Part shown: positions 3,715 through 61,590 of the stretch, piece by piece
Position numbering within the stretch: position 1 is the stretch's first letter
How the letters are laid out: the number at the start of each line of letters is the position of its first letter
Translations under genes and position numbers: made by a program
Notes under the pieces: generated by a model
What the model saw: the letters and a program-made list of their open reading frames with translations, nothing else
Told to the model about the DNA's origin: nothing
Database searches by the model: none
Source of the DNA: an uncultured Alistipes sp.
GTDB taxonomy: Bacteria; Bacteroidota; Bacteroidia; Bacteroidales; Rikenellaceae
Assembly: GCA_947623965.1 (NCBI GenBank)
Contig: CANQIF010000012.1
Location: 1 to 64,000, forward strand
Direction of reading: 5' to 3'
DNA length: 64,000 bases

Positions 3715-4600
3715 TATGGCGGCTTGCCGATGCCTGCAACAAGCCCGCAGCCCGCTTGGCCTCCAGAGAGGGCGATTTTCTAATCGCCTAATTTCCGACG
3801 GCAGTCCCGCAGCCGGGCGGACGGGCCTGCACGAGCGGCCTGCGGGACGCGAAGCTGCAGCCCTCCGCCAGGGGGCGGCTGCGGTCTGCCGGTCCTGACG
3901 GACCGATTTTGTCAGCAAGCACTTTCACTCCGACCGGTTGCGTGCTTGTTGCAGGCAGATTCGATGCCGCAGGCATCGGCGGGCTGCAGCCTCCGGGCAG
4001 CGGAGGCCCGCAGTTCGTTGCCGAATCTGCGTGCGCTCCGCAGGCTGCAGCCCGAATTGGAATGTACGCCCAAGCGCCCCCGAAAGCCCTTTTTAATTTT
4101 GAATCTTGAATTTTGAATTCTGAATTTGCGGCTTCGATAAGAAGCCGCAGCGGGCCCCAGCTTCGCCCCGCGAAGGCCCGCACCTCGCATCCGCTCGTGC
4201 CGGCGCTTCGCAAGCTGCTGCCCGAGCATCATTTTTAATTCTTCATTTTTCATTTTTAATTGCACCCGCATGGGCGCTGCAGCCCGCAGCCGCCCCCGGG
4301 CGGAGGGCTGCTCCTCTGCGTCGCAGGCCCGTCCGCTCGGCTGCGGGCTTTTGCAGTGGGTCGATCGCGCAGCGATTGGCGGGCCGCAGCCTTGCGACCC
4401 GAACTGGAATATATGCCCAAGCGCACCTGAAAGCTCCTTTTAATTTTGAATCTTGAATTTTGAATGCTGAATTTGCGGCTTCGATAAGAAGCCGCAGCGG
4501 GCCGCAGCTTCGCCCCCGCGAAGGCCCGCTGCTCGCGTCCCGCAGGTCCGCTTCGTGCGGCCGCTTCGCAAGCTGCGCCCCGCGGATGCAGATGCGAATG
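3715..4600. repeat. composite GC-rich repeat block
   Basis: No gene here. Several full cassettes follow each other: 7-bp repeat tracts at about 4094-4127, 4226-4260 and 4440-4472, then hairpins with different stems (GCGGCTTC/GAAGCCGC at 4128-4148 and again near 4473-4493; GATGCC/GGCATC near 3963; GGTCCTGACGGACC near 3893), then GCGGGCC or GCAGCCCGCAGCCG arms. The 492-residue minus ORF that crosses this block is a repeat artefact. Confidence 0.8.
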
Positions 4601-10044: not shown

Positions 10045-10580
10045 GCATTTTTAATTCTTTATTCTAATTGCAGCCTTGTAAAGGCTGCAGCAGCCCGCAG
10101 CCGCCCCCGGGCGGAGGGCTGCTCCTCCACGTCGCATGCCCATCCGCTCGGCTGCGGGCTTGTCTCGAGTTTAGACCGGTCCGTCAGGACCGAGCGGGCC
10201 GCAGCCTCCGCCCGGCGGAGGCCCGCAGCTCCTTGCAGTCGTGCGCGCGCTCCGCAGGCTGCGTCCCGAATCGGATTGAGCGCCTAAGAACCCTGCAGGC
10301 CCAATTAATTTTGAATCTTGAATTTAGAATTTTGAATTTCGGCCTTGCAAAGGCCGTGCGGGCCGCAGCTTTGCCCGGCGAAGGTCCGCTGCTCGCGTCC
10401 CGCAGGTCCGCTTCGAGCAGTTCCTCCGCAGGCTGCAGCCCGAATGGTAATTTTGAATCTTGAATTTTGAATTCTGAATTGCGCCCGAATGGGCGCAGCG
10501 GTCCGCAGCCTTCCGGCAGCGGAGGCCCGCAGTTCGTACCCGAACGTGCGCGCGCTCCGCAGGCTGCAGCCCGAATTCCA
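10045..10580. repeat. composite GC-rich repeat block
   Basis: No gene. Four cassettes are clear: GCAGCC/GGCTGC hairpin at about 10073-10091 with a GCAGCCCGCAGCCG arm, GGTCCGTCAGGACC hairpin near 10178 with a GCGGGCCGCAGC arm, GGCCTT/AAGGCC hairpin near 10341, and GCGCCC/GGGCGC hairpin near 10482. 7-bp repeat tracts separate them (about 10305-10340 and 10448-10480). The last one runs into the 3' end of recQ. Confidence 0.8.
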
Positions 10581-12654: not shown

Positions 12655-13085
12655 GCCGCAGTTCATTTTGCATTTCGGCCTTGCAAAGGCCGTGCGGGCC
12701 GCAGCCTGGGGGCGGCGGAGGCCCGCAGTTCGTACCCGAACTTGCGTGCGCTCCGCAGGCTGCAGCCCGAATGGTAATTTTGAATCTTGAATTCTGAATT
12801 TGCGGCTCCGCAGGGAGCCGCCGCAGCCCGCAGCCGCCCCCGGGCGGAGGGCTGCTCCTTATGGTCGCAGGCCCGTCCGCTCGGCTGCGGGCTGGTCTCG
12901 AGTTCGGGCCGGTCCGGTAGGACCGAGCGGGCCGCAGCTTCGCCCCGCGAAGGCCCGCAACTCCTTGCAGTCGTGTGCGCGCTCCGCAGGCTGCGTCCTG
13001 AATCGGTAATTTTGAATTTTGAATTTTGAATCTTGAATTTGCGGCTCCGCAGAAAGCCGCCGCAGCCCGCCCCGAAAAATCGCAT
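12655..13085. repeat. composite GC-rich repeat block
   Basis: No gene. It carries GGCCTT/AAGGCC (about 12675), GCGGCTCC/GGAGCCGC (12802-12821) and GGTCC/GGACC (about 12910) hairpins, both arm types, and 7-bp tracts near 12776-12800 and 13006-13040. It lies between divergent recQ and the PqqD-like gene. Confidence 0.8.
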
Positions 13086-22223: not shown

Positions 22224-22247
22224 CTCTCGCAATCCGAAAGGATTATT

Positions 22248-22459
22248 GCGGAAACAGCTCAGTTGGTAGAGCACAACCTTGCTTCAGGGAAAATAAGCAC
22301 GCCCGACCTTGGCAAGGCGATGACCGCGGAAAGAGAGGTGTGCGAGAAGATTTGCGGAAACAGCTCAGTTGGTAGAGTACAACCTTGCCCCAGGAAAATA
22401 GGCACGTCCAACCTTGGCAAGGCAGAGACCGCGGAAAGAAGGGCGTGCAACAGATTATT
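22248..22459 (+). repeat. two 106-bp units carrying a 5' tRNA-Gly half
   Basis: Units start at 22248 and 22354; the real tRNA starts at 22460, so the period is exactly 106 bp. Each unit opens with 35 nt that match the tRNA-Gly 5' half (GCGGAAACAGCTCAGTTGGT and onward to CCTTGC), with similarity ending inside the anticodon loop. The following 71 nt contain CCTTGGCAAGG, an inverted copy of the anticodon arm, and another GCGGAAAG. There is no T arm or 3' acceptor strand, so these are not tRNA genes. They should be transcribed together with the tRNA. Confidence 0.85.
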
Positions 22460-22532
22460 GCGGAAATAGCTCAGTTGGTAGAGCACAACCTTGCCAAGGT
22501 TGGGGTCGCGAGTTCGAGTCTCGTTTTCCGCT
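22460..22532 (+). tRNA. tRNA-Gly (GCC)
   Basis: Complete cloverleaf of 73 nt: acceptor GCGGAAA/TTTCCGC, D arm GCTCAGTTGGTAGAGC, anticodon arm CAACC-TTGCCAA-GGTTG with GCC at 22493-22495, T arm GCGAG-TTCGAGT-CTCGT, discriminator T. The CCA end is not encoded. Confidence 0.95.
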
Positions 22533-22534
22533 CT

Positions 22535-27499: not shown

Positions 27500-27845
27500 G
27501 GTTCGATGCGGTTCGCAGCTGCCAGCTGTGGCGGAAAGGCTTGCCTGTAAATTCGACGTCGCAGACGTCGGCAGCCCGCAGCCGCCCTCGGGCGGAGGGC
27601 TGCTCCTTGGCGTCGCAGGCCCGTCCGCTCGGCTGCGGGCTTGGCTCGAGTTTGGATCGGTCCGTTAGGACCGTGCGGGCCGCAGCCTGGGGGCGGCGGA
27701 GGCCCGCAGTTCGTTGCCGACCTTGCGAGCTCTCCGCAGACTGCGACCCGAACTAAAATATATGCCCAAGCGCGCCCGGAAGGCCCTCTTAATTTTGAAT
27801 ATTGAATTTTGAATTATGAATTTGCGGTTCCAAATGGAACCGCGC
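27500..27845. repeat. composite GC-rich repeat block
   Basis: No gene in 27412-27849. It contains a GACGTCGCAGACGTC hairpin (about 27556), a GCAGCCCGCAGCCG arm, a GGTCCGTTAGGACC hairpin (about 27659), a GCGGGCCGCAGCCTGG arm, a 7-bp tract (about 27789-27822) and a GCGGTTCC/GGAACCGC hairpin that abuts the end of the S41 gene. Confidence 0.8.
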
Positions 27846-30155: not shown

Positions 30156-32753
<2,598 letters not shown>

Positions 32754-32833
32754 GGTTATCTGTTTTTTGATGATTTCCGTTTTCGGAAGGGGTATCCGCA
32801 AAAGATTTGCCAAGCCGCCGCGGCCGGACAGAT

Positions 32834-32868
32834 TGACGCATCGTGACAGGTTTTGACACGAAATGACA
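32834..32868. promoter_or_regulatory. 10-bp-phased TGAC repeats upstream of clpB
   Basis: TGAC begins at 32834, 32844, 32854 and 32864, exactly one helical turn apart; the last three are TGACA. On the clpB strand they read TGTCA repeats. The position, 80-115 bp before the start codon of a heat-shock gene, suggests an operator bound on one face of the DNA. Confidence 0.6.
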
Positions 32869-32984: not shown

Positions 32985-33690
32985 CCCTCCCCGTTTGGAG
33001 GAAATGCCTGCCAGCAAATTCGACGTCAAAGACGTCGAGCAGCCCGCAGCCGCCCCCGGGCAGCTGCGGGCTGGCCTTGCAGCTGGAATCGACCTCGCAA
33101 GAGGTCGGCGGGCCGCAGGCTGCTGCCCGAAAATAATTCTTCATTTTTCATTGCGCCCTCAAGGGTGCCGCAGTCCGTCCGCTCGGCTGCGGGTTGGTTC
33201 TGAATCGGAATCGGTCCGTTAGGACCGTGCGGGCCGCAGCCTGGGGGCGGCGGAGGCCCGCAACTCCTTCGCGTCGTTGCGCCCTCCGCAGGCCGCGGCC
33301 CGAACGGAAATATATACCCAAGCGTACCCGGAAAGCCTCTCTCCTTAATTTTGAATCCTGAATATTGAATTTTGAATCATGAATTGCGCCCGAACGGGCG
33401 CAGCAGCCCGCAGCCGCCCCCCCCCGGCGGAGGGCTGCATCTTCGCGTCCCGCAGGCCGCTCGTGCAGGCCCACCGCTCGGCTGCGGGCTTGTCTCAAGT
33501 TGAAATCGGTCCGTTAGGACCGAGCGGGCCACAGTTGTTGGTGCTTTATACTGTATATGCGACCTCGAAGAGGTCGGCGGGCCGCAGCCTCCCGGCGGCG
33601 GAGGCCCGCAGTTCGTTGCCGAACTTGGCGTGCCCTCCGCAGGCTGCAGCCCGAGCATAATTTTGAATCTTGAATTCTGAATTTGCGGCT
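32985..33690. repeat. composite GC-rich repeat block
   Basis: No gene in 32754-33768. Hairpins: GACGTCAAAGACGTC (about 33024), GACCTCGCAAGAGGTC (about 33090), GGTCCGTTAGGACC (about 33213), GCGCCCGAACGGGCGC (about 33385), GGTCCGTTAGGACC (about 33507) and GACCTCGAAGAGGTC (about 33561), each before an arm. 7-bp tracts occur at about 33346-33382 and 33659-33683. Confidence 0.8.
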
Positions 33691-45834: not shown

Positions 45835-47150
45835 CCCTTTTTGAGCAGAGGCTGTTATTGATTGTAAGCCGGGGCCAATGCCAAATTTATTTGGGTATGG
45901 CCGAGGCGGAGTATTTTCGGTTCAGCCAAAGATACGCATAAACTGAAAGCAAAAGGCCATTCATTTGCGTTCTGCTGAAACGACGTATCCAAGACAAAGC
46001 CAAAGATAACGAATTTCAACGAAAAATGAATCGTCGAAGAGCGAAAAACGGGGCCGGAGTTGGAATTTTGCAGCGCAGGACTTGCTCGAAACAGCATCGA
46101 TGCCGCCAGACTACTGCCTAAGTCTGCAGGTTCGTTGCAGAGCGACGGCGGGCCGCAGCATTGTTTCGGTCCGTCAGGACCGGCAGCCCACAGCCGCGTC
46201 GGTCGGCGTCGAGGTGTTTTGCAGCAAAATCGGTCGCTGCGCGCCCTCCACAGGCTGTGCTCCGATTGGTAATTTTGAATTCTGAATTTGCGGTTCCGAT
46301 AAGGAACCGCAACGGGCCGCAGCCTCCCGGCAGCGGAGGCCCGCAGTTCGTGTCCGAATCTGCGTGTCCTCCGCAGGCTGCAGCCCGAGTGGTAATTTTG
46401 AATCTTGAATTTGCGGCTTCGCAGGGAGCCGCCGCAGCCCCCGGTTTTGTAGGAAATGCCTGCCAGCAAATTCGACGTCAGAGACGTCGAGCAGCCCGCA
46501 GCCGTTATTTATTGAGAGATATTTTGCGCAGAGATCGGTCGCGAAGCGACCGGCAGCCCGCAGCCGCCCCCGGGCGGAGGGCTGCTCCTCTAAAGTCGCA
46601 GGCCCGTCCGCTCGGCTGCGGGCTGGCCCCGAGGTTGAGCCGGTCCGTTAGGACCGTGCGGACCGCAGTCTCCGCCCTGCGGAGGCCCGCAGTTCGTACC
46701 CGAATCTGCGCGTCCTCTGCCGGCTGCGACCCGACCTGAAATATATGCCCAAGCGTGCCCAGAAAGCCCTCTTAATTTTGAATCTTGAATTTTGAATTTT
46801 GAATTTGCGGTTCCGAATGGAACCGCAGCGGGCCGCAGCCTCCACCCAGCGGAGGCCCGCAGTTCGTACCCGAACTTACATGCACTCCGCAGGCTGCGAC
46901 CCGACCTGAAATATAAGCTCAAGTGTGCCCAGAAAGCCCTCTTAATTTTGAATTCTTAATTTGCGGTTCCGAATGGAACCGCAGCGGGCCGCAGCTTCGC
47001 CCCGCGAAGGCCCGCTTTTCGCGTCCCGCAGGTCGGTCCGCTCGAGCGTGTCCTTCGCAAGCTGCGGTCCGAGTATAATTTTGAATTCTGAATTTGCGCC
47101 CGCAAGGGCGCCGCCGCCCGCCGCCCGCCGCCCGCCGCCCGAACGCGCGA
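45835..47150. repeat. hppA upstream modules and composite repeat block
   Basis: No gene in 45812-47151. 45835-46020 carries degenerate promoter modules on the minus strand: TATCTTTG at 45934-45927 and 46008-46001, and a CCTCGGC...CCAAATAAATTTGG unit. From 46140 there are composite cassettes with hairpins GGTCCGTCAGGACC (about 46166), GCGGTTCCGATAAGGAACCGC (about 46289), GACGTCAGAGACGTC (46474-46488), GGTCGCGAAGCGACC (about 46538), GGTCCGTTAGGACC (about 46641), GCGGTTCCGAATGGAACCGC (about 46807 and 46962) and GCGCCCGCAAGGGCGC (about 47097). Confidence 0.78.
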
Positions 47151-56639: not shown

Positions 56640-57455
56640 CCCCTTCGGGTGCAAATTCATTCTTCACAATTAAACAGCTTTGCCGGACGCGGTTGGGCAA
56701 GCATTCCGGTTCGGGACGCAGCCTGCGGAGGGCACGCTCGAAGCGGACCTGCGGGACGCGAGCTGCGGGCCTCCGCCGCCGGGAGGCTGCGGCCCGCGGC
56801 GGTTCCTTGCCGGAACCGCAGATTCCCGACTCAAAATTCAGCATTTTGAATCGGGCTGCAACCCGCTGTCCTGACGGACCGATTCTTGTTGCACAAGGCC
56901 AGCCCGCAGCCGAGCGGACGGGCCTGCGACACAAAGGAGCAGCCCTCCGCCAGGGGGCGGCTGCGGGCTGCCGGTCGCTGCGCGACCGAGCCACAAGCGT
57001 AATCAACTGCCAAAGAACAAAACTGCGGCCTGCCGATTGCCGTGCGACCGAATCATTCTGAATTCGGGTCGCGGCCTGCGAAGGTTCCGCTCGACTGCAA
57101 GGAGCTGCGGGCCTTCGCCGCCGGAGGCTGCGGCCCGCCGATGCCTGCGGCATCGAAACCGTCTCGAAGCCAGCTCACAGCCGGGTGGACGGGCTTGCGA
57201 TGTAGCGGAACAGCCCTCTGCGCGGGGAGGCTGCGGCCCGCCGATGCCTGCGGCATCGAAACCGTCTCGAAGCCAGCTCACAGCCGGGTGGACGGGCTTG
57301 CGATGTAGCGGAACAGCCCTCTGCGCGGGGAGGCTGCAGCCCGCCGATGCCTGCGGCATCGAAACCGTCTCGAAGCCAGCTCACAGCCGGGTGGACGAAC
57401 TTGCGACGTAGAGGAACAGCTCTCCGCCCCGGGAGGCTGCGGCTCGCCAGCGTCA
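56640..57455. repeat. composite block with a 103-bp triple tandem repeat
   Basis: No gene in 56519-57479. 56690-57060 has ordinary inverted cassettes (hairpins GCGGTTCCTTGCCGGAACCGC near 56798, GTCCTGACGGAC near 56867, GGTCGCTGCGCGACC near 56970). From 57138 a unit starting CCGATGCCTGCGGCATCG repeats three times with an exact 103-bp period (57138, 57241, 57344). The last copy decays near 57440 beside the pdxA stop codon. Confidence 0.8.
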
Positions 57456-60599: not shown

Positions 60600-61590
60600 G
60601 CTTGTTGGCTCTGCTGCGGGCTTGTCTTGCAGCAGGAATCGACCTCGTTAGAGGTCGGCGGGCCGCAGCCTCCGGTTGTTGCTCGTTATTTTGCCTGCAA
60701 AATCGGTCGCGGAGCGGCCGGCAGCCCGCAGCCGCCCCCGGGCGGAGGGCTGCTCCTTTACGTCGCATGCCCGTCCGCTCGGCTGCGGGCATTTCCTCGG
60801 GTGAAATTGATACCGCAGGCCGGTCTGTCAGGACTGAGCGGGCCGCAGCCTCCCGGCGGCGGAGGCCCGCAACTCCTTGCAGTCGTGTGCGCCCTCCGCA
60901 GTCTGCTGCCCGAACCGGGACATATCGCCAAGCTCGTCCGGGAACTCCATTTAATTTTGAATTTGCGCCCGCAGGTCCGCTTCGAGCGAGCCCTCCGCAG
61001 GCTGCTGCCCGTGTGTAATTTATCGTGTCTTTATCGGTCGCGGAGCGATCGGCAGCCAGCAGTCGTCCCCCAGCGAAGGCCCGCTATTCGCGTCCCGTAG
61101 GTCCGCTTCGAGCGAGCCCTCCGCAGGCTGCTGCCCGTGTGTAATTTATCGTGTCTTTATCGGTCGCGGAGCGATCGGCAGCCAGCAGTCGTCCCCCAGC
61201 GAAGGCCCGCTATTCGCGTCCCGCAGGTCCGCTTCGAGCGAGCCCTCCGCAGGCTGCTGCCCGCGTGTAATTTATCGTGTCTTTATCGGTCGCGGAGCGA
61301 CCGGCAGCTCGCAGCCCCCCCGGCGAAGGCCCGCTATTCGCGTCCCGCAGGTCCGCTTCGAGCGAGCCCTCCGCAAGCTGCTGCCAGCGTGTAATTTATC
61401 GTGTTTTTATCGGTCGCGCAGCGATCGGCAGCCCGCAGCCGCCCCCGGGCGGAGGGCTGCATGCTCGCGTCCGCAGGCCGCTCGTGCAAGCCCACCGCTC
61501 GGCTGCGGGCCGCACTCGCATCCGCTTGTGCTGTTCCTCCGCAGCACGCAGCCCCATTTTTAGTTCTTCATTCCCGCCCGAATGGACGGG
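60600..61590. repeat. composite block with a 126-bp tandem repeat (four copies)
   Basis: No gene in 60545-61595. Ordinary cassettes lie at 60635-60960 (hairpins GACCTCGTTAGAGGTC near 60641 and GGTCGCGGAGCGGCC near 60706). From about 60968 to 61410 a unit with GTGTAATTTATCGTGTCTTT and a GGTCGCGGAGCGATC hairpin repeats at 61011, 61137, 61263 and 61387 (126, 126 and 124 bp apart). A final GCAGCCCGCAGCCG cassette follows up to the trxB end. Confidence 0.82.

Follow-up and report, generated by a model that had tools for sequence, protein, structure and literature searches.

The window, i.e., the whole 64,000-nucleotide stretch of DNA analyzed here, carries on its minus strand the gene for the ATP-dependent chaperone ClpB (30159..32753, 865 codons read), which starts with an ATG at 32753 and runs leftward. 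Its 865-residue product scores 1299.6 bits against the TIGR03346 ClpB model, above the cut-off of 1232.1, contains the Pfam domains Clp_N, AAA, AAA_2 and ClpB_D2-small, and is most closely related, within the named collection, to ClpB of Alistipes. Upstream of this start, TGAC occurs four times on the plus strand, at 32834, 32844, 32854 and 32864, with a spacing of exactly 10 bp, as a first-pass annotation of this DNA had described; the array measures 81-115 bp from the clpB ATG, in agreement with the 80-115 bp given there. Read on the clpB strand, it consists of three TGTCA half-sites (32864-32868, 32854-32858 and 32844-32848) followed by GCGTCA (32834-32839), so that five bases are common to three copies and the fourth is a degenerate half-site, CGTCA (32834-32838). 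A possible extra degenerate half-site, CTGTCC (32826..32831, minus strand), lies 8 bp downstream of CGTCA, at the spacing preferred in relatives, and is weak. The full fourfold pattern was absent from 100 dinucleotide-preserving shuffles of the window. The threefold TGAC pattern is found only at clpB in the 2.47-Mb genome, as two overlapping matches, and its reversed control pattern gave 0 matches in the same genome. An Rfam search around the array site returned no match.

Several other repeats lie elsewhere in the window. AATTTTG heptad repeats are present at many places, e.g., at 681-713, 4090-4127, 10307-10339, 13008-13040, 27791-27823, 33347-33385 and 46774-46806. Two tandem arrays, one of a 103-bp unit in 3.2 copies (57123-57448) and one of a 126-bp unit in 4.4 copies (60961-61513), have units that are 90-95% alike. 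A 106-bp repeat of 2.5 copies (22235-22495) has a unit with tRNA-like sequence, and ARAGORN reports one tRNA-Gly at 22460-22533, overlapping the end of this repeat.

Beside the TGAC array lies a sigma-54 promoter that the first-pass annotation had missed. The -24/-12 element TGGCAAATCTTTTGC (32798..32812, minus strand) matches the canonical TGGCA-N6-TTGC with GG-N10-GC spacing; it is located 21 bp downstream of the array, and its first base is 59 bp before the clpB ATG. The element is conserved at orthologous promoters: it precedes clpB in 17 of the 17 genomes with a readable clpB start, this one included, and TGG[CT]-N7-TTG is found within 110 bp of the start at 64 of 76 named Bacteroidales clpB loci. 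Some of the 12 loci with no match within 110 bp visibly have one farther out. The strict form TGGCA-N6-TTG is present at 51 of the 76 loci, compared with 9 of 1649 control windows. A simple sigma-70 and terminator scan, which does not cover the primary sigma factor of Bacteroidota, gave nothing convincing. The genome contains 17 strict sigma-54 matches, and the one at clpB alone is preceded by three TGWCA. Strict sigma-54-like matches at L066, L067, L070, L075 and L076 also lie upstream of open frames, with no close TGWCA clusters, and are possibly targets of other enhancer-binding proteins or chance matches.

The exact fourfold direct array with its 10-bp spacing is not conserved at clpB of relatives; what is conserved there instead are TGNCA half-sites and their helical phase. 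No other 5-mer is as enriched as TGACA, equivalent to TGTCA, in the sequence preceding the clpB sigma-54 site (53 of 63 loci versus 15.8 expected); before the 63 named sites it occurs 102 times, mostly in the first 80 bp, compared with 19 times in shuffles. Half-sites at the named loci are most often 8 bp apart, in most cases forming the inverted repeat TGACA-N3-TGTCA, against which the four direct repeats before the present clpB are an unusual, local arrangement of TGNCA half-sites. The mean number of TGWCA per 120 bp ranges from 1.6 to 2.6 upstream of four chaperone genes, while coding windows hold 0.17.

We analyzed the positions of TGNCA relative to the -24 box at the clpB, groES, dnaK and htpG promoters of this genome and its relatives, and obtained a best period of 10.5 bp with R=0.62, where the null maximum averages 0.13. 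The phase was R=0.58 for clpB loci outside Alistipes and R=0.63 for groES, dnaK and htpG alone. With one genome per family, R was 0.57 with p=0.0002 (50 sites, 21 promoters), and p-values outside this last test are optimistic because related loci are not independent. All subsets gave a TGNCA period of 10.3-10.5 bp and R between 0.57 and 0.63, and among 66 XXNXX patterns TGNCA showed by far the strongest 10.5-bp signal. This bears out the earlier remark that the repeats point to the same side of the helix, and it shows that this side holds a set position with respect to the promoter. The unit conserved is TGNCA-N3-TGNCA together with half-sites phased with the -24 box, and not an array of four 10-bp direct repeats in particular. 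Seen at four genes and in nine families, this phasing is a genomic hallmark of a sigma-54 enhancer, and an unusually clear one.

The first-pass annotation had proposed to look for the same half-sites at other heat-shock genes, and TGTCA or TGACA indeed stands before groES, dnaK and htpG of this genome as well as before clpB of relatives. Sigma-54-type elements with TGNCA half-sites upstream precede groES (TGGCACACCAATTGT), htpG (TGGCACACCGTTTGA) and dnaK (TGGTATAACGTTTGT), the half-sites taking the forms TGTCA, TGACA, TGCCA and TGGCA. Taking the first base of the -24 box as reference, the half-sites of groES are located at -80, -57, -49, -26 and -14, those of dnaK at -78, -36, -25 and -17, and those of htpG at -39, -25 and -17; the corresponding positions for clpB are -81 (TGGCA), -56, -46 and -36, with the degenerate CGTCA at -26. 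The -24 box of dnaK in this genome reads TGGTAT, not TGGCA, and before its grpE, the start of which is misassigned, we found no convincing sigma-54 element. At homologous loci, a sigma-54 match was scored for 14 of 21 groES and 11 of 16 dnaK genes. The paired form TGWCA-N3-TGWCA occurs at two sites only in this genome, one of them upstream of groES; the other, at the 3' end within a SusC-like coding sequence, was judged a chance match. Across Bacteroidales, the same module of sigma-54 element and half-sites precedes groES, dnaK and htpG.

The sigma factor itself is encoded in this genome, where RpoN was detected by PF04552 (G000:C4, 177 bits). RpoN is present in 19 of the 21 genomes searched; the two with no PF04552 match are G010 and G016, the latter 98% complete, so that RpoN was not seen in every genome. 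The HrcA repressor (PF01628), by comparison, was found in none of the 21.

Transcription from a sigma-54 promoter depends on an enhancer-binding protein (EBP), and three EBPs with PF00158 are encoded in this genome. One of them (G000:C11, locus L156, 3305-4561; PF00158, AAA_lid_14, HTH_8) is a receiver-less AAA+ protein with a Fis-type HTH. PF00158 begins at residue 21 and neither a receiver nor an N-terminal regulatory domain is present; the protein has the GAFTGA loop, which reads GSFTGA in some relatives, and its HTH is preceded by a linker that is long and variable. Each of the nine families examined yielded a receiver-less EBP of this kind from its loci. Their recognition helix, SERTLYR, is nearly invariant over 20 sequences, as expected if the DNA site is conserved. 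The gene adjoins lptE in most loci read; it is followed by a secG-like gene and groESL in five genomes (G015-G019) and by a secG-like gene and clpB in another (G020), lptE and secG being named from a look at the sequence. The second EBP (L157, 2882-4030) has a receiver and an AAA+ domain. No HTH was recognized in the three proteins of its type examined, from this genome and two other families, which makes it a poor candidate for reading DNA. The third (G000:C8, L158) is a full two-component NtrC-type EBP with receiver, AAA+ domain and Fis HTH. We regard the receiver-less EBP at L156 as the most likely activator of the clpB promoter, given the genomic distribution and neighborhood described above. 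As a separate observation, response-regulator EBPs with a receiver and AAA+ domain and no recognizable DNA-binding domain are widespread (L157:2882-4030, L167:6348-7511, L168:2293-3438), and in two families grpE and, by look, dnaJ are a few genes away from such a gene.

In its architecture, the L156 protein resembles PspF, a receiver-less AAA+ protein with a C-terminal Fis HTH that acts with sigma-54 in a stress response, the phage-shock regulon. Yet it scores below both PspF equivalog cut-offs (258.1 versus 443.55 bits for TIGR02974 and 210 versus 529 for PRK11608) and is therefore not filed as PspF. It further differs from PspF in its long linker before the HTH, in its proposed targets, which are cytosolic chaperones, and in its putative sites, which are TGNCA half-sites.

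Taken together, these comparisons suggest that the TGTCA array (32834..32868, minus strand), on account of its uniqueness and of the 10.5-bp phase of TGNCA half-sites at homologous promoters, is very probably the enhancer, or upstream activating sequence, of a sigma-54-dependent clpB promoter, read by a candidate EBP and shared by a chaperone regulon. The array had been proposed as a heat-shock operator. The notion of a regulatory site on one helix face most likely holds, but with the -24/-12 element 21 bp downstream the site is most likely an activating sequence and not an operator of the repressor type. We infer that RNA polymerase with RpoN would form a closed, inactive complex on TGGCAAATCTTTTGC. 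The TGNCA half-sites, which share one helix face 25-60 bp upstream, would be read by a dimeric EBP whose HTH is of the Fis type; this protein would oligomerize once bound and melt the promoter through ATP hydrolysis by its AAA+ ATPase. The same activator, acting on groESL, dnaK and htpG, would create a chaperone regulon standing in for sigma-32 and HrcA, and the signal may be heat or misfolded protein, presumably sensed by the receiver-less EBP.

The array might also be a sigma-54 enhancer read by another EBP, e.g., the NtrC-type protein at L158, or by several. The presence of three PF00158 EBPs in this genome is compatible with this, as is the L158 protein itself, which possesses receiver, AAA+ and Fis HTH and whose gene lies beside one resembling its histidine kinase. 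Most genomes of the same genus, however, have only two strong EBP matches, and the other common EBP is the one with no recognizable HTH. Moreover, two genomes that are both 99% complete, G013 and G014, have no strong PF00158 match besides the receiver-less EBP and still keep the motif at chaperone genes: clpB of G013 is still preceded by TGACAATTTGTCA and a sigma-54 element, and groES and dnaK of G014 by half-sites. Together with the linkage of the receiver-less EBP to groESL or clpB in several families, this makes a different reader unlikely.

Two further explanations would dispense with an enhancer. Upstream of clp genes, CtsR recognizes GGTCAAA-NAN-GGTCAAA, a direct repeat with a period of 10 bp. 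The present repeats could be the operator of a CtsR-like repressor whose derepression by heat lets clpB be driven from a primary-sigma promoter, and the CtsR repeats are superficially like GTCA-N6-GTCA. The likeness to the CtsR boxes of Firmicutes lies in the 10-bp period of direct repeats before clp genes. The clpB array differs from them in sequence and geometry and is tied to a sigma-54 promoter. Its sites lie 10-60 bp upstream of, and in phase with, a conserved sigma-54 element, which is the geometry of an activator, and the main unit in relatives is inverted with 8-bp spacing. HrcA, which resembles the proposed activator in controlling chaperone genes, is absent from the genomes searched, and the simple scan, within its coverage of sigma-70-like promoters and not of the Bacteroidota primary sigma factor, found none. 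We consider such a repressor quite improbable. That the TGAC cluster arose by chance and has no function would agree with the lack of conservation of the exact array in relatives. It is hardly credible in view of the uniqueness of the array in the genome and its absence from shuffles, the rank of TGACA as top enriched 5-mer at homologous promoters, and a half-site phase conserved across families.

The enhancer reading of the clpB array connects to earlier work on Bacteroidota. In Flavobacterium psychrophilum, sigma-54 promoters have been mapped at groES, dnaK, grpE, htpG, clpB and lon, and its authors did not decide which of three EBPs is the activator (PMC9723704). The promoters of that system (F. 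psychrophilum SM4) share with the present one the sigma-factor element and the targets groESL, dnaK, htpG and clpB. The same species has a sigma-54 regulator-LptE pair (0733-0732) whose locus numbers are close to those of groESL (0729-0728), similar to the neighborhood of the receiver-less EBP gene described above (PMC9723704). A comparative study from 2025 reports COG-level enrichment of sigma-54 at chaperones in Bacteroidota (PMC12316311). The first-pass statement that heat-shock operators in this group are poorly known is partly outdated by the F. psychrophilum promoters. Neither an enhancer motif nor a chaperone activator is named in the accessible parts of the two papers (PMC9723704, PMC12316311). 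What the present analysis contributes is the half-site code of TGNCA, the 10.5-bp phasing of these half-sites and their link with the receiver-less EBP. A literature search, with subscription journals mostly outside its reach, found no description of a TGNCA enhancer or its activator, and we found no mention of RpoN or sigma-54 in the Bacteroides thetaiotaomicron transcriptome papers examined.

We lean toward the wider reading that the master activator of heat-shock genes in Bacteroidales, and perhaps in the whole phylum, is a single receiver-less AAA+ EBP with its gene next to lptE and secG-groESL. This protein would read phased TGNCA half-sites at the sigma-54 promoters of clpB, groESL, dnaK and htpG and so replace sigma-32 and HrcA. 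A small repeat thus leads to a specific, testable circuit consisting of a sigma factor, an enhancer code, a geometry and a named candidate activator, which can be addressed in a laboratory strain such as B. thetaiotaomicron. Bacteroidota are dominant gut bacteria in which chaperone control operating with neither sigma-32 nor HrcA is poorly defined. The module suggests how Bacteroidales may control their heat-shock genes when both are lacking.
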